Below, piece by piece: positions 34,141-50,031 of a stretch of DNA of 64,000 bases. Below the pieces are notes generated by a model. That model was not told the DNA's origin and ran no database searches. It was given only the letters and a program-made list of their open reading frames with translations. Position 1 is the stretch's first letter. Each line of letters opens with the position of its first letter. This stretch comes from Micromonospora inositola (lineage in GTDB: Bacteria > Actinomycetota > Actinomycetes > Mycobacteriales > Micromonosporaceae), in assembly GCF_900090285.1 (NCBI RefSeq), contig NZ_LT607754.1:1054001-1118000 (forward strand), read 5' to 3'. A program made the position numbers and the translations under genes.

Positions 34141-35816
34141 ACCGCCGCCCGTTCGACCCGCGTCTGCTGCGCCGGGTCCCCGCGGCCCGGCGCGACCTCG
34201 CCGTGCTCGCGGTCCTCGGCGGGCTCACCGCGCTGCTGGTGGTCGCGCAGGCCACCGCGCTGGCCACGCTGCTGGCGACCGCGGTCGACGGGCGGCTGCA
34301 CCGGCCGGCGTTGGCCGGCTTCGTGGCGGCGGTCGCCGCCCGGGCGCTGGTCAGCTGGGCCCAGGGCACGGTGGCGGCCCGGGCCGCGGCGACGGTGAAG
34401 GCGGCGCTCCGCGCGGACCTGCTCCGCGCCGTCGGCCGGCACGGCCCAGGCTGGGTCGCCGGCCAGCAGGCCGGGCAGCTGGCCACCCTCGTCGGGCGCG
34501 GCCTCGACGCGCTGGACGCCTACTTCACCGGCTACCTCCCCCAGCTCGTGCTCAGCGTCACCGTGCCGCTCGCCGTGCTGGCCCGGATCGTCCTCGCCGA
34601 CTGGAGCTCGGCGCTGATCATCGCGCTGACCATCCCGCTCATCCCGGTCTTCGGGGCGCTGCTCGGCTGGCAGGCGCAGGCCGCCACCGAACGGCAGTGG
34701 CGCCGGCTCTCCCGCCTCGGCGGGCACTTCCTCGACATGGTCGCCGGGCTGCCGACGCTGCGCGCGTTCGGCCGGGCCCGGGCGCAGGTCGACGTGGTCC
34801 GCCGGATGGCCGACGGGCACCGGCAGGCCACCATGCGGACGCTACGGATCGCCTTCCTCTCCGCGCTCGTGCTGGAACTGGTCGCCACCCTCTCGGTGGC
34901 GCTGGTCGCCGTGCCGGTGGGCATCCGGCTGCTCGGCGGCGGGATCACCCTCTCCACCGCGCTGCTGGTGCTGCTGCTCACCCCGGAGGCGTATCTGCCG
35001 CTGCGGGCAGCGGGCAGCCGGTTCCACGCCAGCATGGAGGGGCTCACCGCGCTGGACGAGGCGCTGACCCTCTCCGCCGCTCCGGACGCCGCCGCGCCGA
35101 CCGCCGTGCGGGCCCCGGCGCCCGCCGGTGCCGGCGAGATCCGCTTCGAGGGCGTGACCGTCGAGTACGAGCGGACCACCGCGCTGCGGGACGTCACCCT
35201 GACCATCCGCCCCGGCGAGCGGATCGCGGTCATCGGCCCGAGCGGCGCCGGCAAGAGCACCCTGCTCGCCCTACTGCTCGGCTTCGTCACGCCGACTGCC
35301 GGCCGGGTCACCGTGGCCGGGGTCGACCTGGCCGACGTCGACCTCGACGCCTGGCGCCGCCAGCTGGCCTGGGTGCCGCAGCGGGCGCACCTCTTCGCCG
35401 CCTCGCTGGCCGACAACATCCGCCTCGGCGCGCCGGACACCACCGACGCCGCGCTCGGCGGGGCGGTCACCGACGCCGCGCTGGACGAGGTGGTCGCCGC
35501 CCTGCCCGACGGGCTGGCGACCGAGCTCGGCGAGCGCGGGCACGGCCTCTCCAGCGGCCAGCGGCAGCGGGTGGCGCTGGCCCGGGCGTTCCTCCGGGAC
35601 GCCTCGGTGGTGCTCCTCGACGAGCCCACCGCCCGGCTCGACTCCGCCAGCGAGGCGGTCGTGCTGGCCGCCACCCGCCGGCTGGTCGCCGGGCGTACGG
35701 CGCTGCTCGTCGCGCACCGGCCGGCGCTGCTGGAGGACGCCGACCGGATCATCCGCGTCGAGGACGGTCGGGTCACCGAGCTGACCCCGGCACCGGCCGG
35801 GAAGGCGACCCGATGA
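34137..35816 (+). CDS. cydD: Thiol reductant ABC exporter subunit CydD
   Basis: 559 aa, six membrane helices followed by an NBD with Walker A GPSGAGKST, signature GLSSGQRQRVALARAF and Walker B VVLLDEPTARLD. CydDC exports cysteine/glutathione-type thiols or transports haem and is needed to assemble cytochrome bd. GTG 34137 overlaps the cydB stop by 4 bp, and the stop overlaps cydC (ATGA), so the four genes are coupled. Synteny and sequence support CydD over a generic exporter. Confidence 0.93.
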   Translation: MNRRPFDPRLLRRVPAARRDLAVLAVLGGLTALLVVAQATALATLLATAVDGRLHRPALAGFVAAVAARALVSWAQGTVAARAAATVKAALRADLLRAVGRHGPGWVAGQQAGQLATLVGRGLDALDAYFTGYLPQLVLSVTVPLAVLARIVLADWSSALIIALTIPLIPVFGALLGWQAQAATERQWRRLSRLGGHFLDMVAGLPTLRAFGRARAQVDVVRRMADGHRQATMRTLRIAFLSALVLELVATLSVALVAVPVGIRLLGGGITLSTALLVLLLTPEAYLPLRAAGSRFHASMEGLTALDEALTLSAAPDAAAPTAVRAPAPAGAGEIRFEGVTVEYERTTALRDVTLTIRPGERIAVIGPSGAGKSTLLALLLGFVTPTAGRVTVAGVDLADVDLDAWRRQLAWVPQRAHLFAASLADNIRLGAPDTTDAALGGAVTDAALDEVVAALPDGLATELGERGHGLSSGQRQRVALARAFLRDASVVLLDEPTARLDSASEAVVLAATRRLVAGRTALLVAHRPALLEDADRIIRVEDGRVTELTPAPAGKATR

Positions 35817-37972
35817 GCCCCGGACCGGCCGTCCCCGACCGCCCCGACCAGCCGGGACGGGCCGTGCCGGGTGGTGTCTCGGCCGACGGGACCACGCCGG
35901 CCGCGCGCGACCCGGGACCGCCCACCCCGGCCGAGACCCTCCCGCCGGAGCTGGCGCCCGGTGCCGTACCCACCGCGCCGGCCCCCGACGAGGCCGTACC
36001 CACCGGGCCGGCCCCGGACGATGCCGTACCCACCGGGCCGGCCGCCGTCGAGGCCGGCGCGGCCGGGGCGGTGGGCGCCGATGCGACGACCGCCGGAGTC
36101 CCACCCGCCCGTCCGGCCGGCGCGCGGGCGGTGCCGGCCGGGGCCGGAGGCGTCCGGGCTGAGCGGACGGTGCTGCGGCTGGCGCGGCCGTACCTGGGCC
36201 GGCTCGTCGGGGCCGGGCTGCTCGCCGCCGCCACCGAGTTCGCCGGGCTGGCGCTGATGGCCACCGCCACCTGGCTGCTGATGAGCGCCGCCGGCCGGCC
36301 CCCGCTGGACCGGCTGACCGTGGCCATCGTGGCGGTCCGGGCGCTCGCCATCAGCCGGGGCGTGTTCCGCTACGTCGAACGGCTCGCCGGGCACGACGCC
36401 GTGCTCCGCATGATCACCGACGTCCGGGCCCGGGTGTTCGGCACCCTCGCCGCCCGCCGGGACACCGCCCCGGAGCGCTCCGGTGACGCGCTGAGCCGAC
36501 TCGTGTCCGACGTGGAGGCCGTGCAGGACCTGCTGCTGCGGGTGCTGGTGCCGGGAGCGGCCGCCGGGCTGGTGAGCGTGCTCGCGGTCGGCGGGGCCGC
36601 GCTGATCTCGCTCCCCGCAGCCGGGGCGCTGGCCGCCGGGCTGCTGGTCGCCGGGGTGGCGCTGCCCGCGCTGGCCACCGTGCTCACCCGGCGGGCCGCC
36701 GACGAGGTGGCCCCGCTGCGCGGCGCGCTCGCCGTGGACGCGGTCGACCTGACCCACGGCGCCGCCGACCTGGCCGCCTTCGGCGCCACCGGCGCGGCGC
36801 TCGCGGCGGCCGACCGGCGCGCCCGACGTCTCGCCCGGCTGGAGCGCCGGCTCGCCGCGGCCGGCTTCGCGGTCGACGGGGCCGGGGTCCTGGTCGGCGG
36901 GCTCACCGCCGCCGCCGTGGTGGTCGTCGCGCTCCGCGCCGACGTCGGCGGGGTGCTGGTCGGGGTGCTGGCCGTCGGCGCGCTCGCCGCCGTGGAGGTC
37001 GCGCTGGCGCTGGTCGGCGCGGCGCGGCAGCGCACCCAGCTCCGCGCCGGCCTGGAGCGGGTCGCCGCGCTGCTCACCGGGCCCGTCCCGGCGGCCGGCC
37101 CGGCCCCGGCGCCGGGAAGGGGCACCGGGACCGCCGCGAGCCCGTCGATCGGCACGGCCGGGACGACGGGCCGGACCCGGGCGGGCACGACGGCCGGCGC
37201 TGGTTCGGCGGGCCACGACGTGCGATTCGACGAGGTGACCGTCCGGTACCGGGCGGGGGCGGCACCCGCCCTGGACCGGATCAGCCTCGACCTGCCCGCC
37301 GGCCGTCGGGTCGCCGTGGTCGGGCCGAGCGGCGCCGGCAAGAGCACCCTCGCGGCGGTGCTCACCGGCGCGGTACGCCCCGACGCCGGCCGGGTCACGC
37401 TGGACGGGGTGGACGTGTCCGCGTACCCGGCCGAGGAGCTGCCCCGGGCGGTCGGGGGGCTGCTCGCCGAGGCGTACGTCTTCCACGCCTCCGTCCGCGA
37501 GAACCTCCTGCTCGGACGCCCCCGGGCGGGCGAGGCGGAGCTGACCGCCGCGACCCGGGCGGCCGGCCTGCTCGACTGGGTACGCGCCCAGCCGGCGGGC
37601 TGGGACACCGTGGTCGGCGAGGAGGGCGGGCAGCTCTCCGGCGGGCAGCGACAGCGGCTCGCGCTGGCCCGGGCGCTGCTGGCCGCGCCGGCCGTACTGG
37701 TGCTGGACGAGCCCACCGAGGGCCTCGACCCGGCTGCGGCCGACGCGGTGCTCGCCTCGGCGTTGGCCGCCGCCCCGGCCGGGCACTCCGTGCTGCTGAT
37801 CAGCCACCGGCTCAGCGGCCTGGCGGGCCTGGACGAGATCGTGGTGCTCGACGCCGGTCGGGTGGTGCGGCGTGGCCGGCACGCCGAGCTGGTGGCCCGG
37901 CCCGGCTGGTACCGGGAGCAGTGGCTGCTCCAGGAGGCGGCCGAGCGCGGCTACCTGGCCCTGGCCCCCTGA
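35813..37972 (+). CDS. cydC: Thiol reductant ABC exporter subunit CydC with N-terminal low-complexity extension
   Basis: 719 aa; usual CydC is about 550-600. Residues 1-115 form a Pro/Ala-rich disordered extension containing three 10-residue AVPT repeats. The ABC exporter proper starts near AERTVLRLARPYLGRL, with Walker A GPSGAGKST, signature QLSGGQRQRLALARAL and Walker B VLVLDEPTEGLD. ATG 35813 overlaps the cydD stop (ATGA). A start nearer the first helix would remove the extension, but GC-rich coding bias continues through it. Confidence 0.92.
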   Translation: MSPGPAVPDRPDQPGRAVPGGVSADGTTPAARDPGPPTPAETLPPELAPGAVPTAPAPDEAVPTGPAPDDAVPTGPAAVEAGAAGAVGADATTAGVPPARPAGARAVPAGAGGVRAERTVLRLARPYLGRLVGAGLLAAATEFAGLALMATATWLLMSAAGRPPLDRLTVAIVAVRALAISRGVFRYVERLAGHDAVLRMITDVRARVFGTLAARRDTAPERSGDALSRLVSDVEAVQDLLLRVLVPGAAAGLVSVLAVGGAALISLPAAGALAAGLLVAGVALPALATVLTRRAADEVAPLRGALAVDAVDLTHGAADLAAFGATGAALAAADRRARRLARLERRLAAAGFAVDGAGVLVGGLTAAAVVVVALRADVGGVLVGVLAVGALAAVEVALALVGAARQRTQLRAGLERVAALLTGPVPAAGPAPAPGRGTGTAASPSIGTAGTTGRTRAGTTAGAGSAGHDVRFDEVTVRYRAGAAPALDRISLDLPAGRRVAVVGPSGAGKSTLAAVLTGAVRPDAGRVTLDGVDVSAYPAEELPRAVGGLLAEAYVFHASVRENLLLGRPRAGEAELTAATRAAGLLDWVRAQPAGWDTVVGEEGGQLSGGQRQRLALARALLAAPAVLVLDEPTEGLDPAAADAVLASALAAAPAGHSVLLISHRLSGLAGLDEIVVLDAGRVVRRGRHAELVARPGWYREQWLLQEAAERGYLALAP
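35963..36052 (+). repeat. Three tandem 30-bp repeats in the cydC 5' region
   Basis: Three in-frame 30-bp units, each encoding AVPT(A/G)PA followed by three variable residues. They encode part of the disordered N-terminus of CydC and could vary in number between strains. Confidence 0.85.
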
Positions 37973-38029: not shown

Positions 38030-38698
38030 ATGCGGGGGTACGACGGCGTGCTCGTGGAGGAGCGCCTGCGGGAGCTGGCCGGGCACCTGCGTGGGCCGGC
38101 CAGGTTGAAGACCGACCTGCTCACCGAGGCGCGGCACGCGCTGCTGGACGCCGCCGAGGCGTACCGGGAGGACGGCCTGCCGACCACGGAGGCCGAGCGG
38201 CGCGCGGTGGCCGAGTTCGGCAGCAACGCCCAGCTCGCGCCGGCTTACCAGGCCGAGCTGACGGCCGGGGCGCTGCGCGGGCTGGCGCTGCGGGCGCTGG
38301 CGGTGGCGGTGGCGTTGATGGCCGGCGGCGATCTGACCTGGCGGGGCGCCCACTGGCGGGGCGGTCCGCCGCCCGAGGGCTACCGGCTGCTGTCCGCCTC
38401 GCTGAACGGGATCTGGGGCCTGGTCGCCGGGCTGGCGCTGGCCGGGCTGCTGCTGGGTTTCCTCGCCGCGCGGTACGGGTCGCCCCGGTTGCCCCGCCTG
38501 GGGCGCGCGGTGGGCTTCGGCCTGACCGGCGCGCTGGGCCTGGGCGCGCTCGCCGGCAGCGCTCTGCTCGCCTGGTCGATCGGCCTCTGGGAGGCGGCGC
38601 TCACCTGGCCGCCGATGATCTTCGGGACGGTGCTGGTGAGCGTGGCCTGGTTCGCGCTGGCGCGGGCCGCCCGCTGCTGGCTGCTGACCACCCGGTGA
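38030..38698 (+). CDS. Permease-prefix-domain membrane protein
   Basis: 222 aa. The first 75 residues are the helical permease prefix domain (VEERLRELAGHLRGPARLKTDLLTEARHALLDAAEAYREDGL..EAERRAVAEFG), usually found before ABC permeases and next to PadR genes. Four membrane helices follow. Such proteins are thought to link membrane components to PadR regulators. Here the PadR gene lies convergently downstream, not in the same operon. ATG 38030 has GGTGAGG upstream. Function unknown. Confidence 0.78.
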   Translation: MRGYDGVLVEERLRELAGHLRGPARLKTDLLTEARHALLDAAEAYREDGLPTTEAERRAVAEFGSNAQLAPAYQAELTAGALRGLALRALAVAVALMAGGDLTWRGAHWRGGPPPEGYRLLSASLNGIWGLVAGLALAGLLLGFLAARYGSPRLPRLGRAVGFGLTGALGLGALAGSALLAWSIGLWEAALTWPPMIFGTVLVSVAWFALARAARCWLLTTR

Positions 38699-38726
38699 CA
38701 CGCCGCCGGTGAGCCGCCGTCCGAGG

Positions 38727-39068
38727 TCAGGCAGGTGCGGTCGGCGGTTGGTCGGCGCCGAGGAACCGGCCCACGGTCGCGCTGAACTCGCGCCAGCCGG
38801 CCCGCTCGCCGGCCAGCGCGCGCCCGCCGGCCTCGGTGAGCTGGTAGGTCCGTCGTTCCCGGCCGTTGACGGTGCTCCACGAGCTGGCGACGTAGCCCGC
38901 CCGTTCCAGTCGGCGCAGCGCCGGGTAGATGGTGCCCGTGGGCAGGTCCAGCGTGCCGTCGCTCCGCGCCCGGAGCGCCTCGATGATCGCGTACCCGTGG
39001 AGTTCGCCCTGCTCCAGGACCGCCAGCAGCAGCGCGTCCAGATGTCCGTGCAGCGCCTGGGCCTTCAT
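38727..39068 (-). CDS. PadR family transcriptional regulator
   Basis: 113 aa with the PadR winged helix: HLDALLLAVLEQGELHGYAIIEALR, the LPTGTIYPALRRLERAGYV recognition region and the GRERRTYQLTEAG wing. ATG 39068 is chosen because the family starts there (MKAQALHGH) and a palindromic operator directly abuts it. TAGCGT inside that palindrome lies 8 nt before the ATG, so the gene is probably leaderless and autorepressed. The likely partner is the convergent permease-prefix protein. Confidence 0.9.
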   Translation of the reverse strand: MKAQALHGHLDALLLAVLEQGELHGYAIIEALRARSDGTLDLPTGTIYPALRRLERAGYVASSWSTVNGRERRTYQLTEAGGRALAGERAGWREFSATVGRFLGADQPPTAPA

Positions 39069-39085
39069 AAGTAGCAACGCTACTT
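39069..39085. promoter_or_regulatory. 17-bp palindrome abutting the PadR start codon
   Basis: AAGTAGCaacGCTACTT is a perfect 7-3-7 inverted repeat that ends at the base before the PadR ATG. It covers the probable -10, so PadR binding would shut off its own promoter. Confidence 0.65.
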
Positions 39086-39140
39086 GTCCGCCCGCCGGGA
39101 CGCCACCGGGGTGCGGTCCCGGCCTCGCCGGGTCGCCCAC

Positions 39141-39217
39141 TAGGGTATGTGCGCAGAGTCACTCGGCGACCGAAGGTGTCGCCGGGTGGGCAAACCCGAA
39201 AGCACACGGAGGTCAGC
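39141..39217 (+). promoter_or_regulatory. Promoter -10 and structured 5' UTR of the acidic protein gene
   Basis: TAGGGT (39141-39146) is a probable -10. The following roughly 65-nt leader holds the hairpin CGGCGAC-cgaaggt-GTCGCCG (39164-39184), then GGAGG before GTG 39218. The 16-mer GGTGTCGCCGGGTGGG (39175-39190) recurs at 42657-42672, just before another start codon. Confidence 0.45.
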
Positions 39218-40147
39218 GTGGCCCGCCAGTCGCCCCAACGGCCCGACGCCGACGAGCCCGAGCTCGATGAGAACACCGCGTCGTCGGCAGCAGACGAGGT
39301 CGACATCGACCGCCCGGCCGCCGACCGCGCGCTCTGGGACGAGCTGCGGATCGACCCGGTGGAGATCGCCCTGCCCGCCGGCACCGGCTTCACCCTGCGC
39401 GCGTACCGGCCGGCGCGGGAGTTGACCCCGACCGACGTCGCCGAGCGCGACGAGGACGACCCCTTCCTGGCCCGCCGCCAGGTCGTCGAGGCCGAGGACG
39501 CGGACGAGGAGGTGGTGATCCTCGACGAGGAGTTCGCCGCCCTGTCCGCGGAGAAGGACGAGGACGAGGAGCGGCCCGCGGGGCGCCGGCGCGGCGCCGC
39601 CGAGGAGGCGGAGGAGCTGGCCGAGGCCGACGAGGACGAGGACGAGGAGGCCGCGGGTGACGAGGAGGTGCCGATCTTCCTCAGCCACCGCGGCCGGCTG
39701 CTGCTGTTCAAGACGCCGGAGTCGCTGGTCAGCTTCGTCCGTTCCGGTGCGCCCAACGACCTGTCTCAACTGGACAGCTGGAGTGAACTGTCCGAACGGG
39801 TGGAACCGGCCGACATCGCCCCGCTGGACGAGGACACCTACGAGCTCGACCTGGTGGTGGAGAACCTCCGCGGCGGGCACGACACGTGGGACCCGACGCT
39901 CCTGATCGAGGCCGGCGAGGTCGCCCGTGACCTTGCGTACGCGCTGCGGCTACCGGCGGTGCTGGACATGCTCTCCGCGGGTTCCAGCCTGGACGACCTG
40001 GACGAGGCGCTGCGGGCCTCTGTCAACGGCGGAATCGGTGCATTTCTGGGCCGGCGGCGCCTCAAGAAAATCGGGGCACAAACCGCAAGTTTGGGTTGGC
40101 GCACCATTGTCGGCAAGATCTCTGCTGTCGTGGACTGGCGCGACTGA
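39218..40147 (+). CDS. Acidic actinobacterial protein of unknown function
   Basis: 309 aa with a very acidic first half (Asp/Glu runs around residues 85-145, ending DEDEDEEAAGDEEV) and a compact C-terminal half (about 150-309: PIFLSHRGRLLLFKTPESLVSFVRSG; YELDLVVENLRGGHDTWDPTLLIEAGEVARDLAYAL; LGRRRLKKIGAQTASLGWRTIVGKISAVVDWRD). GTG 39218 has GGAGG at 6 nt; earlier in-frame starts lie in the UTR. It is followed after 66 bp by the IS110-like gene and is probably co-transcribed with it. I do not recognise a characterised family. Confidence 0.75.
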   Translation: MARQSPQRPDADEPELDENTASSAADEVDIDRPAADRALWDELRIDPVEIALPAGTGFTLRAYRPARELTPTDVAERDEDDPFLARRQVVEAEDADEEVVILDEEFAALSAEKDEDEERPAGRRRGAAEEAEELAEADEDEDEEAAGDEEVPIFLSHRGRLLLFKTPESLVSFVRSGAPNDLSQLDSWSELSERVEPADIAPLDEDTYELDLVVENLRGGHDTWDPTLLIEAGEVARDLAYALRLPAVLDMLSAGSSLDDLDEALRASVNGGIGAFLGRRRLKKIGAQTASLGWRTIVGKISAVVDWRD

Positions 40148-40213
40148 CCCGTAGCGGGGAGCATCAGTCTCTGGCAGAAGTAACGACCTGTGTCCCGGGA
40201 GGAGGACGACGCC

Positions 40214-42553
40214 GTGGCGCTCGTGCGCGTGTACTGCGGTCTGGCCTCGGCGGATCCGGCCGACCGACCGGCTTCGGCCGGTTCGGCGCTGACGTCCGCT
40301 GTGGTCGACGACGCAGGCCGTCTGCTGCATGTCTGCGAGATCAGCGACGACCCGGCGGGCTACGCCCAGCTGGTCGCGCTGCTCGTGGAGCGGTCGGGCG
40401 GGCCGAGCGGTGCGGCCATCGCCGCCGACAGCGACGACCACACGGTCACCTCGCTGCTCAGCGCCGCGGGTCGTCCCCTGGCGATCGCCGACGACGACTC
40501 GGTGGACGACTTCGCCGAGCGCTTCGCCGACGACGACTCCCTGGAGGAGATGAACTCGCCGGCGGCCGAGCGTCGCGCCGTCGGGCTGGCCCGGGCGCTG
40601 CAGGCCGGCGCGCTCTCCGCGGTCACCCTGCCCGCACCCCGTGACCTGGCCAACTACAAGCAGGTCCTCGCCGCGCACGCCGCCCTGGCCAACGGGCGGC
40701 ACTCCGCCGCGGTAGCGCTGCGCGAGGTGCTGCGGGAGCTCTACCCGGCCGCCCTGCGGGCCTACCCGGACCCGGCCGAGCCGGTCTCGCTGGCGGTCCT
40801 CGACGCGCTGCCGGAGCCGGGCATGCTCGCCGGCACCGTCACCCGGGGCCGCGAGGTCTCGGTCGCCGCGGACGCCGTCGCCGCGCACCTCGCCGCCGAG
40901 GGCGTCGCGAGCGCCGGCCAGATCAACGACGCGATCACCGCCCTGCGGGTCGCCATCTCCGAGACGCCCCGCCGGGCCACGGTCAACCGGGTGCTCACCT
41001 CGGCCGTCGCGGAGACCGTGCGGCAGGCGGTCGCCTCCGTCCGGGCCTGCGACGCCGGCTGCGAGGCCCTCGTCAGCGCCCTCGGCGCCCGGGTCACCAC
41101 GCCCGCCCCGGTTCCCGGCCGGCGGGCCGCCGCCCGTCGTGGCGAGCAGGTCGGCGAGCTCGCCGGTCTGACCGGCACCACCGCGACCGGCCTGCGGACG
41201 ATCCGGCCCGCGGAGCCCGAGCCGGTGGGCCGCCGCAGCCGTCCCGAGCCGCTCACCGGCGGCGCGGCGCCGCTGCCGCCCCGGCCGCTCGGCCCGCCGC
41301 CGGTCGCCCCGGCCCCGGTCACGCCGCCGCCGGTCGCCCCGGCGCCGGTCATCCCGGCCGCCGCCAGCGGCACGCCGATCTCCGCACCGCCCTCGCGCCG
41401 GGAACCGGTCCCGCCGATGCCGCACCGGGTGGACGCGCCGACCAACCGTCCGGTCTCCGCGCCGCCCCCGCCGCCCCCGGGCATCACCCCGATCGCCCCG
41501 GCGCAGCGCGGCAACATTCCGCCGGCCGAGGCCGGCGAGCCGTTCCGGCCCACGCTGACCACCGCGGCGATCAACAGCGCCCGCGCCGAACGGCAGCGGA
41601 CGATCATCCCGCCGCGCCCCAAGACCACCCCCGAGCCGGCGCCGCCCACCGGCGGCTTCAGCGCGACCGACCTGACCATCCCGGTGCCGACCCCCCGTCC
41701 CGGCCAGGAGTCCGCCCCGCCGGGGTCCCGGGCCAACTGGCCGCTGGTCAACAACGGCGACGACCTCGCCGACGGCCCCGCCGACGCGCCGTCCGGCTAC
41801 CCCTACGGCGACCGGGGCGGACGGAAGGTCGACGCGCCGACCGACCCGGGCAAGGGTCGAGTCACCCCGCCCTGGCTCGCCGACGACCTGCCCCAGGAGC
41901 CCCCGATGCTGCGGCTGGTCGAGCCGCCACCGCTGGCCGACCGGGCGCTGCGGGACGGCCAGAACCCGCGGACCGATCCCGGTCTGGAGGCTCCGCCGTT
42001 GCGGTTGGTCGAGCGGGCCGCGGCGGACCGCGGCGGCCGGCCCGGACCCCGTGCCGATCTTCCCGAGCCGCTGGAGCGGCGGCCCGAGCCGCTGGAGCAC
42101 CGGCCCCCGCCGGTCTCCGACGAGGGCGACGGCGACCTGCTCATCTTCGCCCAGGCGAAGTCCGCCTGGTTCGTCGGCCACGCCGAAGAGTCCGAGTTGG
42201 ACTGGTCGACCACCGCGGACACCGGCTGGCAGGCCGCCGAGCAGGCGGCCCGCCCGGCCGTGGGCGACGAGACGTCGGCGGGCCTGCCGAAGCGGGTCCC
42301 CAAGGCCAACCTGGTCCCCGGCTCGCCGCTGCGCGAGGAGCGTCCACTGCGGATCGTCCGGAACGCGGCGAGCCTCGCCGAGAACACCACCGGTTACTTC
42401 CGTGGCTGGCGGCGCGGCCAGGAGATCGGCGGGTTCGCGGTCGGCGGTCGCCCCGGCCGGGAGTCGGCCGGCGGCTGGGACTTCAGCCGCGACACCGGCG
42501 ACCGGGACGACGACCGGGAGTACGAGTACCGCTCCGCCGGCTACCGGTCCTGA
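40214..42553 (+). CDS. IS110-transposase-like protein with conservon-kinase-like C-terminal tail
   Basis: 779 aa. Residues 1-290 resemble IS110-family transposases in layout: an N-terminal RNase-H-like part (VRVYCGLASADPADR; LHVCEISDDPAGYAQLVALL), then VGLARALQAGALSAVTLPAPRDLANYKQVLAAH and a YP-P-containing helical end. The first acidic residue of the DEDD set appears lost. Residues 300-640 are Pro-rich and disordered. Residues 640-750 carry LLIF..SAWF, GWQAA, GLPKRVPKANLVPG and YFRGWRRG, all shared in order with the C-terminus of CvnA. GTG 40214 has GGAGGAGG; GTG 40190 is an alternative. Probably a domesticated, non-mobile protein. Confidence 0.7.
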   Translation: MALVRVYCGLASADPADRPASAGSALTSAVVDDAGRLLHVCEISDDPAGYAQLVALLVERSGGPSGAAIAADSDDHTVTSLLSAAGRPLAIADDDSVDDFAERFADDDSLEEMNSPAAERRAVGLARALQAGALSAVTLPAPRDLANYKQVLAAHAALANGRHSAAVALREVLRELYPAALRAYPDPAEPVSLAVLDALPEPGMLAGTVTRGREVSVAADAVAAHLAAEGVASAGQINDAITALRVAISETPRRATVNRVLTSAVAETVRQAVASVRACDAGCEALVSALGARVTTPAPVPGRRAAARRGEQVGELAGLTGTTATGLRTIRPAEPEPVGRRSRPEPLTGGAAPLPPRPLGPPPVAPAPVTPPPVAPAPVIPAAASGTPISAPPSRREPVPPMPHRVDAPTNRPVSAPPPPPPGITPIAPAQRGNIPPAEAGEPFRPTLTTAAINSARAERQRTIIPPRPKTTPEPAPPTGGFSATDLTIPVPTPRPGQESAPPGSRANWPLVNNGDDLADGPADAPSGYPYGDRGGRKVDAPTDPGKGRVTPPWLADDLPQEPPMLRLVEPPPLADRALRDGQNPRTDPGLEAPPLRLVERAAADRGGRPGPRADLPEPLERRPEPLEHRPPPVSDEGDGDLLIFAQAKSAWFVGHAEESELDWSTTADTGWQAAEQAARPAVGDETSAGLPKRVPKANLVPGSPLREERPLRIVRNAASLAENTTGYFRGWRRGQEIGGFAVGGRPGRESAGGWDFSRDTGDRDDDREYEYRSAGYRS

Positions 42554-42684
42554 CCGGGCGCCGACCGCCCGCCACCTGCGTGTTCCTGCCCACACCCGGA
42601 TAATTTGACGCCGGGTCGGGGCGGCCGGAGGAATACCGGCGAAACTGCCGGCGGCGGGTGTCGCCGGGTGGGAAGGCGACTCCA

Positions 42685-43012
42685 ATGGCGACACCGGCAA
42701 TCGACTCCTCCGTGCTGACCCGTCGAGGCGTCCTCGCCGCGGCGGCGGGCACGCTGCTGCTCAGCGCCTGCGGTGCCGGCCGGGCCGCAGGATCAGGCCA
42801 GCACCGGCAGCAGCGCGGCTGCAGCTGCTCGCCACGGCGGCCCGGTTGGCCAGCAGCGTCGACCGGGACGGCTGCGCGCGTATCTGCAGACCGAGGTGAC
42901 CGAGGGCATCGCCGGCGGGTACGCCTTCGCGCCGATCCGGCACGGCGGCATGGAGCGGGACTCCCTCGGCGTCTACGTGGTCACCCAGGGCACCTGGACG
43001 CCGTACGCCTGA
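42685..43012 (+). pseudogene. Frameshifted small lipoprotein gene
   Basis: ATG 42685 opens a twin-arginine-type lipoprotein signal (LTRRGVLAAAAGTLLLSAC, cleavage before Cys). After about 42780 this frame turns into Arg-rich non-native sequence. A coherent frame offset by one base continues as LRAYLQTEVTEGIAGGYAF...VYVVTQGTWTPYA and stops at 43012. Together they would give a protein of about 109 aa, so one indel between about 42780 and 42870 seems likely. It may be a decayed gene or a sequencing error. Function unknown. Confidence 0.55.
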
Positions 43013-43067
43013 CGGCTGGCGGCCCGCTCTCCGGTGGACGGCGGGCCGCCACCCCGGACAGCGAGCA

Positions 43068-43101
43068 GCGCCCGGTGACGGCCGAGGCTGTCACCGGGCG
43101 C
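43068..43101. terminator. 12-bp hairpin downstream of the conservon
   Basis: GCGCCCGGTGAC and its exact complement around a 10-nt loop lie 13 nt past the cvnD stop. A second 7-bp hairpin (43021-43047) is adjacent. Likely terminates the cvn operon and the facing gene. Confidence 0.7.
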
Positions 43102-43114
43102 GTCCTGACGCCGG

Positions 43115-43708
43115 TCAGGCGGGCGCGACCGCCCGCGAGCGACGCATGGTCAGCACATACTCGACCAGCGAGATCAGCACGTGCTTGGTCGACTCCCGGT
43201 TCCGGGCGTCACAGGCCACCACGGGCACGTCGCTGGAGATGGCCAGCGCGTCCCGGACGTCCTGCGGGTCGTGGTACTGCATGCCGTCGAAGCAGTTGAT
43301 GGCCACCAGGTACGGCAGCCGCCGGTGCTCGAAGAAGTCGATGGCGGCGAAGCAGTCGGCCAGCCGGCGGGTGTCCACCAGCACCACGGCGCCGATGGCG
43401 CCGCGGACCAGTTCGTCCCACATGAACCAGAACCGCGTCTGACCCGGCGTACCGAACAGGTACAGGATCAGGTCCCGGTCGATCGAGATACGACCGAAGT
43501 CCATCGCCACCGTGGTCGTCGTCTTGCCCGGCACCTGCCGGGTGTCGTCGACGCCCACGCCGGCGGAAGTCATGATCGCCTCGGTGGTCAGCGGCGTGAT
43601 CTCCGAGACCGAGCCGACCAGCGTCGTCTTGCCGACGCCGAATCCACCGGCGATAACGATCTTCGCCGACGTCACGCGCCCGCTCGGGGTCGGCGGCCGG
43701 TGCGACAT
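43115..43708 (-). CDS. cvnD: Conservon GTP-binding protein (CvnD, MglA-like)
   Basis: About 197 aa, a small Ras-like GTPase. G1 is GGFGVGKTTLV, G2 lies around TVAMDFG, and G3 is LFGTPGQTRFWFMW. G4 is NCFD instead of NKxD, as in many conservon GTPases. ATG 43708 starts one base after the cvnC stop; GTG 43729 overlapping cvnC is an alternative. It acts with CvnA-C as a membrane-associated signalling assembly; its GAP is expected to be the roadblock protein CvnB. Confidence 0.9.
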   Translation of the reverse strand: MSHRPPTPSGRVTSAKIVIAGGFGVGKTTLVGSVSEITPLTTEAIMTSAGVGVDDTRQVPGKTTTTVAMDFGRISIDRDLILYLFGTPGQTRFWFMWDELVRGAIGAVVLVDTRRLADCFAAIDFFEHRRLPYLVAINCFDGMQYHDPQDVRDALAISSDVPVVACDARNRESTKHVLISLVEYVLTMRRSRAVAPA

Positions 43709-43709
43709 G

Positions 43710-44087
43710 TCAGAGCCTGCGAAGTCCACTCAGCACCCTCTCCAGCAGTTCAGTGCCCACCGCGTCGTCAGAGTCGTCCAAAATGGTCGGCTCGTGGACC
43801 GCGACCAGGCCGTCCGTCGCCATGTCGGCGATGAGCACCCGGGCCACGCCGAGCGGAAGCTGCAGCCGCGCCGCGATCTCGGCGAGCGACTGCACACGTC
43901 CGTCACACAGCGCGGCGATGTACTGGTGCTCACGACCCTGGCCGCCATTCCCACTGGCAGCGGCCCGGCCGCGCACCGTCGTCTCGACGAGCGCCTCCAG
44001 CGCGATCTCGAGTCGGGGACGGGTACGACCGCGGGTCACGGCGTATGGACGGACCAACGCTCCGGTCGGTTCGTCACGATCGGCCAT
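43710..44087 (-). CDS. cvnC: Conservon DUF742 protein (CvnC)
   Basis: About 125 aa of the DUF742 family: ALVRPYAVTRGRTRP near the N-terminus, EHQYIAALCDGRVQSLAEIAARLQLPLGVARVLIADM (a winged-helix-like middle) and an LERVLSGLRRL end. ATG 44087 has GGAGGTGA at good spacing. It is the third gene of cvnABCD. It may bind DNA or bridge the other Cvn proteins; the molecular role is unsettled. Confidence 0.9.
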   Translation of the reverse strand: MADRDEPTGALVRPYAVTRGRTRPRLEIALEALVETTVRGRAAASGNGGQGREHQYIAALCDGRVQSLAEIAARLQLPLGVARVLIADMATDGLVAVHEPTILDDSDDAVGTELLERVLSGLRRL

Positions 44088-44189
44088 GTCGCCGCTCACC
44101 TCCTTCGCACCCGGCACCGGCTCTCGCCCGGTGGTTCCCGTCGTTGTTTTCGTGTAGTTCCTGCCGTGCCGACCCGCCGGTCAGCTCGG

Positions 44190-44594
44190 TCAGCCCATCA
44201 TTCCGACAGCCGTACGCGGCTGCGGGGTCAACGCGTCGCCCACCCGGTCGACGAGCAGGGCCATCTCGTAGCCGACCTGCCCGACGTCGCAGCTGCGCGC
44301 CGCCAGGACGGCGAACGATGAGCCGTCCGAGATGGACATCAGGAAGAGAAAGCCGTTGTCCATCTCCACGACGGTCTGCAGGACCGCCCCGCCCTCGAAG
44401 CAGCGAGCGGCGCCCTGGGTCAGGCTGACCAGTCCGGACGAGATCGCGGCGAGCTGGTCCGCCCGGTCCCGCGGAAGGTCACGAGACGACGCGAGGAGCA
44501 GGCCGTCGGCGGAGACGGCGACCGCGTGCGCGACACCGGGCACCCGGTCGGCGAAGTTGGCCAGCAGCCATCCGAGATCCTGCGTAGTTGTCAT
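44190..44594 (-). CDS. cvnB: Conservon roadblock/LC7 protein (CvnB)
   Basis: 134 aa with the roadblock fold: [32 protein letters not shown], a Gly-rich central strand region and [33 protein letters not shown]. MglB-like proteins of this family act as GTPase-activating partners of CvnD-type GTPases. ATG 44594 overlaps the cvnA stop (ATGA), so it is translationally coupled to the kinase. Confidence 0.93.
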
Positions 44595-47500
44595 CCTTGT
44601 TGCTCCTTCTGCCCGCTCCCGGCCACCGGCCCAGAGCCAGACTGCGAGGACTGCTGCCCGCCCGGGGTCGCCTCCGGGCCGGTCGAGTTGCTGTCGGTCG
44701 GGTTGTGACGCCCCCGCTGCACGCCCCGATGGTAGGCCGAGAGCAGACCGCGTACGCCTTCCGGCGTCCGGCGCTGCACCGAGGTCGATGGCTTCTCCAC
44801 CCCACCCGGGACGAGCTGCGCCATTGGCGTCCGCTTGGGCAGCCCCTTCTGGGTGGTCTCCTCCACCGGTACCTCGATGGCCGCCGAGGCGGCCCGCCAG
44901 CCGTCGTCGGCCGCGGTCTGCCAGCCACCGGGCGGCGGCTGCGGCCGCCGGTTCGGCAGCGCCTCGGCAGGGCCGGGGCGGACGCCGCCGTTGGTGCCCG
45001 TCCCGTTGTCGCGCGGCGCTCCACCGGCCGTCGGAGTGTGTGCCATCGGTGCGTTACCTGTCGTCCCGGGTGGTGTCTGCCGGCCGGCCCGACCGGCGGC
45101 GTCGACCTTGGCGAACTGCTGGGTCGCGGCGCCGGGCGCAGGGGCGGCGGCCTCCTCCGGCCCGGGCCGGCGGGTGCGGAACCACGCCGACTCGAGCTCC
45201 CGGAAGATCGGCAGCTCCATCGTCTCGTCGGCGTACCGCTGGCGGTTCCCGGCCTGCTGCGGCGTCGTCGGCCGGTTGGCGGCCGGCGGCCGGTTGGCGC
45301 CCGGGGGCATGGCGGCCGGCGGAGCGGCCTCCGGGCGCTGCACCCGGGGCAGCTCGGTGGTCATGTCCAGGGCGGCGGCGAGCCGCTCCGGAACCGGCGG
45401 GGTGGCCGCGTCCCGGTCGGGCGCGGCGACCGGCGGCCAGGCCGGCGGCGCGCCGGCGGTCGGCGGAGCCTGCGGCGGCAGCTGACCCTGGGCGGGCGGC
45501 GCGGAGTACGGCCGACCCTGAGCAGGCGGCGCCGAGAACGGCTGACCCTGAGCAGGCGGCGCGGAGAACGGCTGGCCCGGGGCGGGCGCGGCCGACACCG
45601 GCTGACCGGAGTACGGCTGGCCCGAGTACGGCTGGCTGGAGACCGGGTGGCCGGACACCGGCGATGCCGACATCGGGACGCCGGAGATCGGCGGCAGCGG
45701 CGGGGCGGAGACCGGCGGCGGGTTGTACGGACGTGTCTCCGGGCTGCTGGGCAGCTGCCGCGGGATCGCCGGCTGCTGCCCGGTGCCGGACGGGTCACCG
45801 TCACCGGCGTTGCGGCGCTGCGGCAGTGGGTCGATCGGCTGCCCGTTGGAGGTCCGCGGCGCGAACGAGTCGCTGCCGTTGATCCCGCTGGCGCCGGTGA
45901 GATCCGACCAGGCGGGCATCGAGCGCATGCCGCCGGGCGTGGCCGGGGCGCCGGAGCCGTTGCGCGGGGCCGGGTCGAACGGGCGACCGCCAAGGGTCAC
46001 CTGGTTGCCCGTCTCACCCGGGCGCGGGGCCGGTGGCGTGGCCGGGCCGTTGCTCAGGGCCGCCAGAGCGCCGAAGGCGGGGGCCGGGCCGACCGGCTGG
46101 GGGCCGCCGAAGGCCGGCGCCGGACCGGCGGCCGCGGGGAGCGCCGCGGGCTGCTGGCCCCGCCCGGAGAGGGCGCGCGGCACCAGGACCGAGGTGGGCA
46201 GCGTGACGTCGGCGACCGTGCCCCGGTCGGCGCCGGGCCGCAGCTCGGCCTTGACGCCGTGCCGGGAGGCCAGCCGGGCGACCACGACCAGACCCATCAT
46301 CCGGGAGACGGCCACGTCCACCTGCGGCGGCGTGGCGAGCCGCTCGTTGAGGTCACGCAGCTGCTCGCCGCTGATGCCGATGCCCCGGTCCTCGACGTAG
46401 AGGGAGGCGCGGTCACCCACCCGCCGGGCCTCCACCATGACCTGCGAGTCCGGCGGAGAGAAGGCGGTGGCGTTGTCGAACAGCTCGGCGACCAGGTGCA
46501 CCAGGTCGTTGACCGCGTGCGCGGCGACCTCGATGTCCCGGTCGATCACGCCGAACTCGATCCGGGTGTAGTGCTCGACCTCGGACTGCGCGGCGCGGAG
46601 CACGTCGATCAGGGCGGCCGGCTCGCGCTGCACGCGGGTCGAGTCGGCGCCGGCGAGGACCAGCAGGTTCTCGTCGTTGCGGCGCATCCGGGTGGCGAGG
46701 TGGTCGAGCTGGAACAGCTCGGCCAGCCGGTCCGGGTCTTCCTCGCCGCGCTCCAGCCGGTCCAGGTGACCGATCAGCCGGTCGACCAGGATCTGTGAAC
46801 GGCGGGCCAGGTTGACGAACATCGTCGCGACGGAGGCGCGCAGCGCGGCCTGCTCGGCGGCGGTGCGGACGGCCTCCAGGTGGACGGCGTTGAACGCCTC
46901 GGTCACCTGGCCGAACTCGTCCTTGCTCCGGACCGGCAGCGGCTCGGCGATCTGGTTGGCCAGCTGCACCGGGGTGAGCTGCCCGGTGACCTGCGGGTCG
47001 CGCAGCCGGGCCACCGCCTGCGGCAGGCCGTACTGGGCCACCGAGAGGGCGCCCTGCCGCAGGTCGCGCAGCGACCTGGCCATCGAACGGGCGACCAGGT
47101 ACGCGAAGAGGATCGCCAGCAGCAGCACGCTCAGCAGCAGGCCGGTCTCCAGGAAGACCTGGCGCTGCACGTCCGACCGCAGCTTGTCGGCCTGCTTGAC
47201 CACGTCGCCGTCGAGCTTCGACTCGACGGTACGGATCAGCTTGGCGTTGCCGACCACCGCGGAGTCCCACTCCTTCGGACCGAAGGAGAGGGTAGACAGG
47301 TCACCGGTCTCGTTGCTGGCGATCTGGCCCTGGTAGGAGAGCACCTCGCGCAGGTCGCCCCCGGCGACGGTCTGCTGGTAGAACTCGGCCTCGGAGCGGT
47401 TGGCGATGGCGGAGAAGGCCTCCTGCGCCTGCCCTCCGGCGGTGACGCTGGCGATGTAGTCCTGGCGCAGGCTCGGGCTGAGCCGTTTGAGGTCAAGTGC

Positions 47501-48154
47501 GCGGTGCACCACCACCCGGCGCTCGGAGAGGAACTCCTTGGTGCGGGCGATGGCGGCGGCGGCGCGCATCCGGTCGCTCAGGTCGCTGTCGCCGGCGAGC
47601 TGGGTGCTCGAGTCGCGGATCGCCAGCAGGTCGCTGATCAGGCCCTCGTACTCCCTGATCGCCTGGCTGGTCACCATCTTGCCGTTGATGACCTGACTGC
47701 GGGTGCCGGGCAGGTCGGTGAGGTTCTGGTCGATCCCGTCAAGGAGGTTATCCAGCGTGGCGGGCAGGTCGTTCAGCTTGGCGCGCTGCTGCGAGTACTG
47801 ATCCTTGGCGTGGTCGACCTTCGTGTTCACCTGGTCGTACGCCGCGGTGTACGGCGTCTTGGCCTGGGCGGTGTCGGCACTCAGCAGCAGCACGGCGGCG
47901 GTCCGCTCGTCCTGCAGGGTGTCGATCAGCTCACCCGAGTAGCCGATCAGGTTGGCCAGGTCGCCGGTCCGGTTGGCATTGTTGAGCGTCTGCAGATGGT
48001 CGACCAGACCAGTGGTGCCGACCACGACCGTGGCGATGGTCGGCACGATCATGATCAGACCGAGCTTGGACCAGATCGGCATGTCGCGGAGCCGGCTGGC
48101 CGGCCGGCGCAGACGCGACAGGAAGGAGCCCGCCGTCTTCGGCCGTTTGCTCAC
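44591..48154 (-). CDS. cvnA: Conservon sensor histidine kinase with nitrate/nitrite-sensing-type domain (CvnA)
   Basis: 1187 aa. A first membrane helix (about residues 30-52) precedes an extracytoplasmic NIT-type helical domain (to about 330); a second helix ([23 protein letters not shown]) is followed by HAMP and an ATPase domain with N-box [15 protein letters not shown] and G1 VEDRGIGI. The His-phosphoacceptor region is not the classical type. Residues 700-1187 are Pro-rich and disordered with tandem QPxS repeats and a conserved tail ([36 protein letters not shown]). The start is GTG 48154. First gene of cvnABCD; no CvnE P450 follows. Confidence 0.92.
45481..45660 (-). repeat. Tandem 30-bp and 15-bp coding repeats in cvnA
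   Basis: Four exact-length 30-bp units (45481-45600; peptide [10 protein letters not shown] and variants) are followed without a gap by four 15-bp units (45601-45660; QPYSG-type pentapeptides). All stay in frame. The 30-bp unit looks like a doubled 15-bp ancestor. They encode a flexible Pro-rich spacer between kinase core and C-terminal tail. Confidence 0.85.
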
Positions 48155-48346
48155 GTCACCGCCCTCGCATCACAGCGTTCGTGCGTCGCCAGGGGCAACG
48201 CCGAGCGACCGACCCGGCGGGTCGGACCTCCGAGATTCCATCACGCCGCCTCGCAAAGAGAAAGCCCAGGTTGTCCCTCGCCGGAGGTGTGATGAGATGT
48301 TGATGCAATTTGCTAGCAATCCGTCTGGCCGGAGTCACTCAAAGTA

Positions 48347-48954
48347 ATGGAAAATCGTCACCGTGTCGTCCTGCTCGCCGGCCCTTCCGGCTCCGGAAAG
48401 TCCTATATAGCGCAGCGAACCGGACTTCCTGTCCTGTGTCTGGACGACTTCTACAAGGACGGCGATGACCCCACGTTGCCGCGTCGAAACGGACAGGTCG
48501 ACTGGGAGTCTCCCGGGTCCTGGGATGCCGAGACGGCGGTGGAAACAATCGCCCGGCTGGCCCGGCACGGCAAGGCCGAAGTGCCGGTTTATGCGATCGG
48601 CGCGGACCGGAGGGTGGCCACTCGGCCATTCGACGTCGCCGGATCGCCACTTTTCGTCGCCGAAGGGATCTTCGCGGCCGAGATCGTCGAGGAGTGCCGC
48701 CGCCGCGGCCTCCTGGCCGGGGCGTACGCGCTGCACCGGCCGCGCGGGGCGACCTTCCTCCGCCGGCTCGCCCGCGACCTGGCCGAGCAGCGCAAGGCGC
48801 CACGGGTGCTGCTGAGCCGCGGGGTGGCCCTGCTCCGCGCCGAGCCGGCCGTGCTGCGCCGGCAGACCGGGTTGGGCGCCGAGGCGGCCCGGCCCGGGAG
48901 GTACTGCGCCGGGTGGCCGCCCTGCTCGCCGGCCACCCGCACCGGCACCCGTGA
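48347..48954 (+). CDS. Uridine kinase-like P-loop protein with apparent frameshift near its 3' end
   Basis: The first 180 codons encode a P-loop kinase of the uridine kinase fold: AGPSGSGKSYIA Walker A, LDDFYKDGDD and the VDWESPGSWD substrate segment. After about 48892 the frame becomes non-native and would run antisense into add up to 49081. The frame one base earlier continues naturally (REVLRRVAALLAGHPHRHP) to TGA 48952-48954, directly abutting add. One missing G in the run near 48892 explains this, so either a real mutation or a sequence error. It would phosphorylate uridine/cytidine; the exact nucleoside is unproven. Start ATG 48347. Confidence 0.75.
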
Positions 48955-50031
48955 TCAGCCGATCAGCTTCCCGTACGCCGGCTTGATCACCTCGTCGATG
49001 ATCTTCAGTCGCTCGTCGAACGGGATGAACGCGCTCTTCATCGCGTTGATGGTGAACCACTGGAGCTCCTTCCAGCCGTAGCCGAAGGCCTCCACCAGCA
49101 GCGCCATCTCCCGAGACATCGAGGTACCACTCATCAGCCGGTTGTCGGTGTTGACCGTCACCCGGAAGCGCAGATCCCGGAGCAGTCCGATCGGGTGCTC
49201 CACGATCGACGGGGCGGCGCCGGTCTGCACGTTCGACGACGGGCACAGCTCCAGCGGGATCCGCTTGTCCCGCACGTACGCGGCCAGCCGGCCGAGCACC
49301 GGCTCCGGGCCCGGGACGATGTCGTCGACGATCCGCACCCCGTGACCGAGCCGGTCGGCGCCGCACCACTGGATCGCCTGCCAGATCGAGGGCAGCCCGA
49401 ACGCCTCGCCGGCGTGGATGGTGAAGTGGAAGTTCTCCCGCTGGAGGTACTCGAAGGCGTCCAGGTGGCGGGTGGGCGGGAAGCCCGCCTCCGCGCCGGC
49501 GATGTCGAAGCCGACCACGCCGGCGTCCCGGTGCCGAACGGCCAGTTCGGCGATCTCCTGGGAGCGGGCGGCGTGCCGCATCGCGGTGAGCAGGGTGCCG
49601 ACCCGGATCGGGGTGCCGGCGTGGGCGGCCTGCGCGCTCCCCTCCACGAACCCGGCGACGACCGCCTCGACCACCTCGTCCAGGGTGAGGTTCTGTTCCA
49701 GGTGCTGCTCCGGGGCGAACCGGACCTCGGCGTAGACGACCCCGTCGGCGGCCAGGTCGAGCGCGCACTCCCGGGCGACCCGGCGCAGCGCGGGCGCGGT
49801 CTGCATCACCGCCACGGTGTGCGCGAACGTCTCCAGGTAGCGCTCCAGCGAACCCGAGTTCGCCGCCTCGGCGAACCAGCGGCCGAGCGCCACCGGGTCG
49901 GTGGTGGGCAGCTCGTGGCCGACCTCGGCGGCCAGCTCGACGATCGTCGCGGGCCGCAGACCGCCGTCCAGGTGATCGTGCAGCAGCGCCTTCGGGACCT
50001 TGACGATGTCCTCGTACCGGATTGCGACCAT
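48955..50031 (-). CDS. add: Adenosine deaminase
   Basis: 358 aa, full length. It deaminates adenosine and deoxyadenosine to inosine. Zinc ligands and catalytic residues are visible: HDHLDG (about residues 18-23), HAGEAFG with the catalytic Glu, GHGVRI and NTDNR. ATG 50031 has TAATGT 6 nt upstream and no ribosome site, so it is probably leaderless. Its stop abuts the convergent uridine kinase gene. Confidence 0.95.

Follow-up and report, generated by a model that had tools for sequence, protein, structure and literature searches.

An IS110-derived protein bearing the tail of a conservon kinase, rated as a new type of accessory component of actinobacterial G-protein systems

The 64,000-nucleotide stretch of Micromonospora inositola DNA analysed here (contig NZ_LT607754.1, positions 1,054,001 to 1,118,000; hereafter the window) comes from a genome represented by a 6.7-Mb single contig. 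It carries a conservon, the operon cvnABCD, and, facing it, a gene whose product we call P1N. This product is named transposase in NCBI records of Micromonospora, the genus of its nearest named relatives. P1N consists of a head derived from an IS110 recombinase, a proline-rich linker and a C-terminal tail that it shares with the conservon kinase CvnA. It is vertically kept across the family Micromonosporaceae. We rate P1N as a novel type of accessory component of actinobacterial G-protein systems (AGPS). The mechanism that we favour, at about even chances, is that P1N is a domesticated IS110 recombinase whose tail docks on roadblock proteins, making it a soluble counterpart or competitor of CvnA.

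P1N is the product of a longest frame of 787 amino acids (40190–42553, plus strand), which databases give as 779 amino acids starting at 40214. Together with a SatS-related gene, it lies on the plus strand and converges on the minus-strand conservon. The latter is complete, in the order cvnA, cvnB, cvnC, cvnD, and the domains of all four components were matched with Pfam. The geometry given in the original prediction, opposite strands at a distance of 2 kb, agrees with the coordinates, including 779 residues counted from 40214; it is the 3' ends of P1N and cvnA that lie 2.0 kb apart. The features are as follows.

40214..42553, plus strand: P1N, IS110-derived head, proline-rich linker and conservon tail (787-amino-acid frame from 40190)
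40220..40636, plus strand: P1N RuvC/RNase H-like domain, residues 11–149 of the 787-amino-acid frame; the DEDD positions read A, D, A, R
40649..41095, plus strand: P1N helical region, residues 154–302, at the position of the IS110 coiled coil (model helices 154–191 and 263–302)
41099..42124, plus strand: P1N proline-rich linker, residues about 304–645, predicted disordered (predicted local distance difference test, pLDDT, below 50 nearly throughout)
42143..42172, plus strand: P1N tail motif 1, IFAQAKSAWF
42224..42238, plus strand: P1N tail motif 2, GWQAA
42281..42322, plus strand: P1N tail motif 3, GLPKRVPKANLVPG, which contains LPxR
42395..42418, plus strand: P1N tail motif 4, YFRGWRRG
44591..48154, minus strand: cvnA, a kinase-like protein of 1187 amino acids with NIT, HAMP and HATPase_c domains
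45179..45208, minus strand: CvnA tail motif 1
44888..44902, minus strand: CvnA tail motif 2, GWRAA
44804..44845, minus strand: CvnA tail motif 3
44711..44734, minus strand: CvnA tail motif 4, YHRGVQRG
44190..44594, minus strand: cvnB, Roadblock/LC7 (PF03259, E 1.9e-22)
43710..44117, minus strand: cvnC, DUF742 (PF05331, E 1e-30)
43115..43729, minus strand: cvnD, small GTPase
39149..40147, plus strand: SatS-related gene directly 5' of P1N (partial NF050072 match, E 7.4e-11, 41.6 bits against a cut-off of 700)

A tail shared by two unrelated heads

The four motifs that had been read at the ends of CvnA and of the 779-amino-acid protein were all found in both, C-terminally and in the same order. 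Full-length BLASTP of P1N against CvnA is a poor detector of this likeness: it does not bring the two tails together in one alignment, because the proline-rich linkers and the spacing differ. When the 98 C-terminal amino acids of P1N were searched against the whole genome, the good matches besides P1N itself were two CvnA proteins only, that of the window (E 4.7e-9) and that of a second conservon (E 3.2e-10). The search returned 15 matches, the next after these two at E 0.045. A profile of 35 tails added two weaker tails in the same genome (E 2.5e-7 and 1.0e-6), both on CvnA-type proteins. Within this genome, the tail is limited to conservon kinases and P1N. The alignment of 35 tails has 14 invariant columns, and the arginine of LPxR is identical in all 35, from CvnA and P1N alike.

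The tail is widespread beyond the family. At E 1e-5 or better the profile matches at least 171 of 394 genomes of the class, and at E 0.001 at least 13 of 149 genomes of the phylum; these are lower bounds, as only the best 14 first-look candidates per genome were scored for the class and the best 38 for the phylum. Fifty-six tail-bearing frames could be placed in a locus: two are P1N of the same genus, and among the 54 others 47 have a CvnA kinase core (some 500 residues being available) and 51 have cvnB downstream. The core-less frames number seven. Four are CvnA in fuller stretches (L113/L141, L120/L138, L169/L287, L178/L288), one is a broken frame with the CvnA piece in an overlapping frame (L168, L289), and two are cut by contig starts (L115, L170). 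Outside the family, every classifiable sampled tail thus sits on a conservon kinase, and a third protein family carrying the tail was not seen among the 56 frames. Nor did the sample contain tails on unrelated proteins away from conservons, the occurrence that the original prediction had named as speaking against it.

Two further arrangements of conservon genes were seen. Three class relatives outside the family (L134, L135 and L136, from genomes G117, G078 and G099) have tandem conservons with the tail on both kinases. At 56 of 80 loci, nearly all from Streptomyces (L188–L267), cvnA and cvnB share one reading frame with one TAG between them; judged from this arrangement, they could be translationally coupled or read through.

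A conserved, disarmed IS110 head

P1N is a constant of the family. Its N-terminal domain was detected in 60 of 61 genomes and 43 of 44 genera, and the only genome without it is a 780-contig assembly (G038). A survey of tails, which drew on the 150 matches listed and is hence a lower bound, gave 51 genomes with two convergent, facing tails 1.6–4.7 kb apart. The N-domain stands immediately 5' of one of the tails, on the same contig, in 49 of these genomes and on a separate short contig in two; a further convergent case was found in G011 (L283). Across the 61 genomes, P1N faces a CvnA-type tail in 50 and probably in two more, lies away from any conservon seen in six and is absent from one; in G002 and G019 it stands at a contig end. 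P1N is therefore linked to the conservon by conserved convergent synteny in 50 of the 61 genomes. All four genes, cvnABCD, were present in the window, in the 20 pair loci fetched and in L283.

The motifs, too, are largely retained. Among the best 120 of 873 homologues of the window protein (P0001, itself included), motifs 1, 3 and 4, written as fixed patterns, occur in order in 119, and the remaining one differs by a single residue of motif spacing. Of 47 more distant homologues, whose named members all belong to Glycomyces, Haloglycomyces, Natronoglycomyces or Salininema, motif 3 is found in 45 and motif 4 in 44. Strict motif 1 is present in only 24 of the 47, mostly as its F is replaced by L or M; two lack the end of the protein. 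In one assembly (L067, from G031), P1N and cvnA are each split into adjacent frames, through sequencing error or real breakage.

The head is IS110-derived by both sequence and fold, and the original label of an IS110-like protein was correct. With the E limit set at 1, eight of 20 P1N members have a PF01548 match, the best at E 1.1e-4; the window protein alone, at E 0.21, falls below the cut-off. A P1N family profile also picks up IS110 transposases beyond the family, with E values as low as about 1e-20; the wide search scored the best 8 first-look candidates per genome. Two of those transposases were checked with Pfam: both have PF01548 and one also has PF02371. The best fold matches are IS621 and ISCro4, with 8wt6_C aligned over model residues 13–290 to chain residues 5–187 (root-mean-square deviation, rmsd, 15.2). 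Other approaches were set aside. A single-sequence Pfam scan missed IS110 at E 0.1, where the profile and per-member scans found it; hhalign against five IS110 frames of the same genome reached 70% probability (E 4e-5) on a poor IS110 alignment and was not relied on; and a PDB sequence search with the family profile gave only low-complexity matches, to the linker.

Judged by sequence, the active site is broken. The first Asp of the DEDD set is lost in 30 of 30 loci and in 167 of 167 database homologues (overlapping sets). The Glu is never retained, an Asp standing in its place in 26 of 30 loci and in 120 of 120 and 34 of 47 homologues. The third residue persists in four of 30 loci, the fourth in two of 30 loci and 40 of 47 Glycomyces-type rows, and no member examined has all four together. 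Glycomyces-type P1N (L283, L284, P0134–P0174), in which the first Asp is gone, retains a D-x-x-D close to positions three and four of the set, for example KDALDD, as if caught midway in the loss of the site.

The second IS110 domain, PF02371 (Transposase_20, the Tnp domain with the catalytic serine), found no match in 20 P1N members at E up to 1, whereas transposase L148 matches both domains. Where the Tnp domain was not found, after residue 304, P1N is predicted to be disordered. NIT, HAMP and HATPase domains were likewise absent from Pfam scans of the window protein and the 20 members. Signs of mobility are missing too: most genomes have one strong match in a conserved place, with a second N-domain match in G055 (E 7.9e-25) as the exception. 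As to a bridge RNA, which IS110 elements have in long non-coding ends, an Rfam scan of window positions 38500–49000 gave a chance-level match only, and P1N starts 42–66 bp past the SatS-like gene.

The space between P1N and cvnD retains traces of another gene. In the window (42685–43012, plus strand), only the start of a lipoprotein gene and its last 60 or so residues remain, and six relatives (L050, L053, L054, L057, L058, L059) have there a frame of 417–454 amino acids matching these pieces. In L054 this frame encodes a substrate-binding protein (Peripla_BP_6, E 1.6e-39). The window copy looks decayed through internal deletion. Farther upstream, a 1091-amino-acid frame (34697–37972, plus strand) matches CydC over residues 490–1039, its first half lying outside that model, and is possibly a CydD–CydC fusion.

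The roadblock neighbour and what the tail may do

The constant partner of P1N is a roadblock gene. P1N is directly followed by a second such gene, RB2, in L051, L055 and L065. It is not beside a conservon in six genomes (G004, G012, G013, G046, G049, G050), and all six copies have RB2 directly downstream or overlapping (L151, L279–L282, L284), with no match to cvnA, cvnC or cvnD in the 12–13 kb stretch fetched. In G013, the conservon is about 16 kb from P1N–RB2 (L150). There are 27 complete P1N loci, leaving aside L067 with its broken frames and L285 and L286, in which P1N is cut by a contig end. Ten of them have RB2, six away from and four beside a conservon; all 17 without RB2 lie beside cvnABCD. 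A roadblock gene is thus present in 27 of 27. The probability of finding all six unlinked loci within the ten that have RB2 is 210/296010, or about 7e-4, a figure that serves only as a guide given the few lineages involved. A residue switch in motif 4 (RA versus RG) was considered as a mark separating P1N with and without RB2, and was dropped since the RB2-bearing L279 and L280 have RG.

RB2 is a lineage of its own. In a tree with 38 CvnB rows, the ten RB2 rows form one group with support of 100/100, although the bootstrap had not fully settled. Two of the ten proteins were scanned, and both matched PF03259 (Robl_LC7) above the cut-off (E 4.1e-17 and 3e-16). The simplest history starts from an ancestral SatS–P1N–RB2 unit facing a conservon; RB2 then disappeared where P1N remained next to the conservon with its roadblock gene, and survived where P1N relocated. 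Alternatively, RB2 may have been gained in the other lineages.

Because each of the six unlinked P1N genes has a private roadblock gene, the partner common to all loci examined appears to be a roadblock protein and not the complete Cvn assembly. The original claim that the 779-amino-acid protein belongs to the Cvn signalling assembly thus finds support in the synteny of 50 genomes and meets its limit in the six where P1N is elsewhere. Similarly, its proposal of a common docking or localisation module on a transposase-like protein holds for the module, which is a real shared unit, and for the origin of the head; docking is what we infer from the constant roadblock companion.

The mechanism could run as follows. 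The IS110 ancestor would have kept its RuvC-fold domain and helical (coiled-coil) region, lost its active site together with the Tnp domain that bears the serine, and acquired an extended disordered linker ending in the tail of a conservon kinase. The tail would act as a set of short linear motifs docking on roadblock/LC7 proteins, either CvnB or the P1N-specific RB2. CvnA would present it at the membrane and P1N the same tail in the cytosol, probably as a dimer held by the old transposase coiled coil. P1N might then give the CvnB/CvnD G-protein switch a further, soluble source of input, or else rival CvnA in docking on CvnB. In the window lineage, CvnB of the facing conservon would be the natural target, because nothing there matches RB2 better than CvnB does. 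CvnA9 is reported to contact CvnB9 and CvnC9 (PMC8510531), and the mycobacterial homologues of CvnB and CvnC are described as acting on the GTPase (PMC13343842).

Several observations weigh against this mechanism. Docking is read from gene context, which by itself may reflect operon history, and the reported CvnA9–CvnC9 contact means that the tail could serve CvnC instead (PMC8510531). The RB2-bearing P1N loci come from few lineages and cannot be counted as independent. No RB2 was found in the genome of the window, where the best match is CvnB itself (39%), nor in the window gap; the RB2 partnership is consequently not directly applicable there. The active site is not fully erased, as the Glu position is Asp in most members and the Glycomyces type keeps D-x-x-D. 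Dimerisation is weakly based because the IS621 coiled-coil match has an rmsd of 15.2. Finally, an AlphaFold model of a Streptomyces CvnA tail read through into CvnB was uninformative (mean pLDDT 53, predicted TM-score 0.37).

The main rival to docking on roadblock proteins, unlikely in our view, is that LPxR supplies a catalytic arginine to CvnD, with CvnA and P1N as alternative arginine-finger donors and P1N a soluble cofactor resembling a GTPase-activating protein. The invariance of this arginine in the tails would suit it, as would the report by Wuichet and Søgaard-Andersen in 2014 of LPxR on conservon kinases and of group-2 MglA/MglB lacking a conserved arginine finger (PMC4316618). However, these authors are themselves cautious in the text available, the P1N–RB2 pair has no GTPase gene match in the fetched stretch at six loci, and other residues among the 14 invariant columns are equally constant, which fits docking better. 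Rather more doubtful is that the tail binds CvnC or serves as a localisation signal, the roadblock neighbourhood being an accident of operon history. The two-hybrid contact between CvnA9 and CvnC9 (PMC8510531) points that way, but the unlinked loci (L151, L279–L282, L284) have a roadblock gene, and neither CvnC nor CvnD was matched in the sequence fetched around them. An extension of the docking mechanism, which we regard as a long shot, is that the disarmed head still binds structured RNA or DNA, much as its ancestor bound bridge RNA, and that the tail relays the binding state to the roadblock/GTPase switch. If true, P1N would be a transposon-built, nucleic-acid-sensing arm of a bacterial G-protein system.

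Very improbably, the tail could mark P1N as a client of a SatS-like chaperone encoded upstream, its likeness to CvnA being secondary. Of the 30 P1N loci examined, 29 do have a SatS-like gene 5' of P1N, and SatS of Mycobacterium tuberculosis is reported to share an operon with SapM, its client (PMC6333443). Yet the CvnA tail is class-wide, while the SatS-like query matched only one of 14 tail-bearing genomes outside the family in a single-sequence search. In G013 (L150/L151), the sole exception among the 30, the SatS-like gene stays facing the conservon and P1N–RB2 lies elsewhere, some 16 kb away. That P1N is an ordinary or decaying IS110 element with a chance-captured piece of cvnA has a negligible probability. 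The database name and the ten PF01548 matches above the cut-off in the same genome would invite such a view, but it is already contradicted by conservation: the N-domain occurs throughout the family, mostly as a single strong match in a fixed place, with the tail kept, the active site evidently broken and Transposase_20 unmatched.

Comparison with known systems

Parts of this system have been described before. A C-terminal extension with a conserved LPxR was reported on conservon kinases in 2014 (PMC4316618), and the available text of a 2026 preprint on MfpD reports that the C-terminal part is longer in Actinobacteria and not notably conserved (PMC13015309). CvnA has the same tail motifs in the same order as P1N, LPxR included; of these, the available text of the 2014 paper names the LPxR motif only. 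P1N carries its IS110-derived head in place of the membrane, NIT, HAMP and HATPase parts of CvnA. With the IS110 recombinases IS621 and ISCro4 (PF01548 and PF02371), P1N shares the RuvC-like domain and the following helical region; it differs from them in its broken DEDD set, the lack of a detectable Tnp/serine domain, its immobility and the added linker and tail. The RuvC-like (YqgF) domains of Tex and Spt6 offer another comparison, but sequence places P1N with IS110.

The AGPS accessories described so far are CvnE, a P450, and CvnF, a GAF protein, which occur overwhelmingly with kinases lacking a sensor domain (PMC13343842). Like P1N, they are extra proteins linked to conservons, and CvnF is reported to act on the upstream sensory part (PMC13343842). 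P1N differs in fold and in its opposite-strand transcription, and its partner CvnA keeps a NIT sensor. None of the marks of CvnE and CvnF, that is, a P450 or GAF fold, a gene four places after cvnA and a sensor-less kinase, is found in P1N. In P1N the DEDD set is broken, and the Tnp domain and mobility of IS110 recombinases, the NIT/HAMP/HATPase body of CvnA and the marks of CvnE/CvnF were looked for and not found; P1N belongs to none of these groups. RB2, for its part, is a Robl_LC7 protein like MglB and CvnB. It makes up a lineage of its own, associated with P1N, and at the six unlinked loci no neighbouring gene matched a GTPase.

Neither the word transposase nor the word tail was found in the main text of PMC13343842, and no published description of P1N or of an IS110-derived partner was found in searches of open-access literature. 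The LPxR part of the CvnA tail is already published (PMC4316618, as far as its available text goes), and the IS110-derived partner appears to be new. The conservon operon has no response regulator, and the route from kinase to G protein is an open question. A tail that recurs on a second, unrelated head and travels with a roadblock gene is a small, precise candidate for the link between kinase and roadblock protein. It also represents a transposase head that seems to have been recruited into signal transduction and that almost all genomes of this large family retain, masked by the name transposase.

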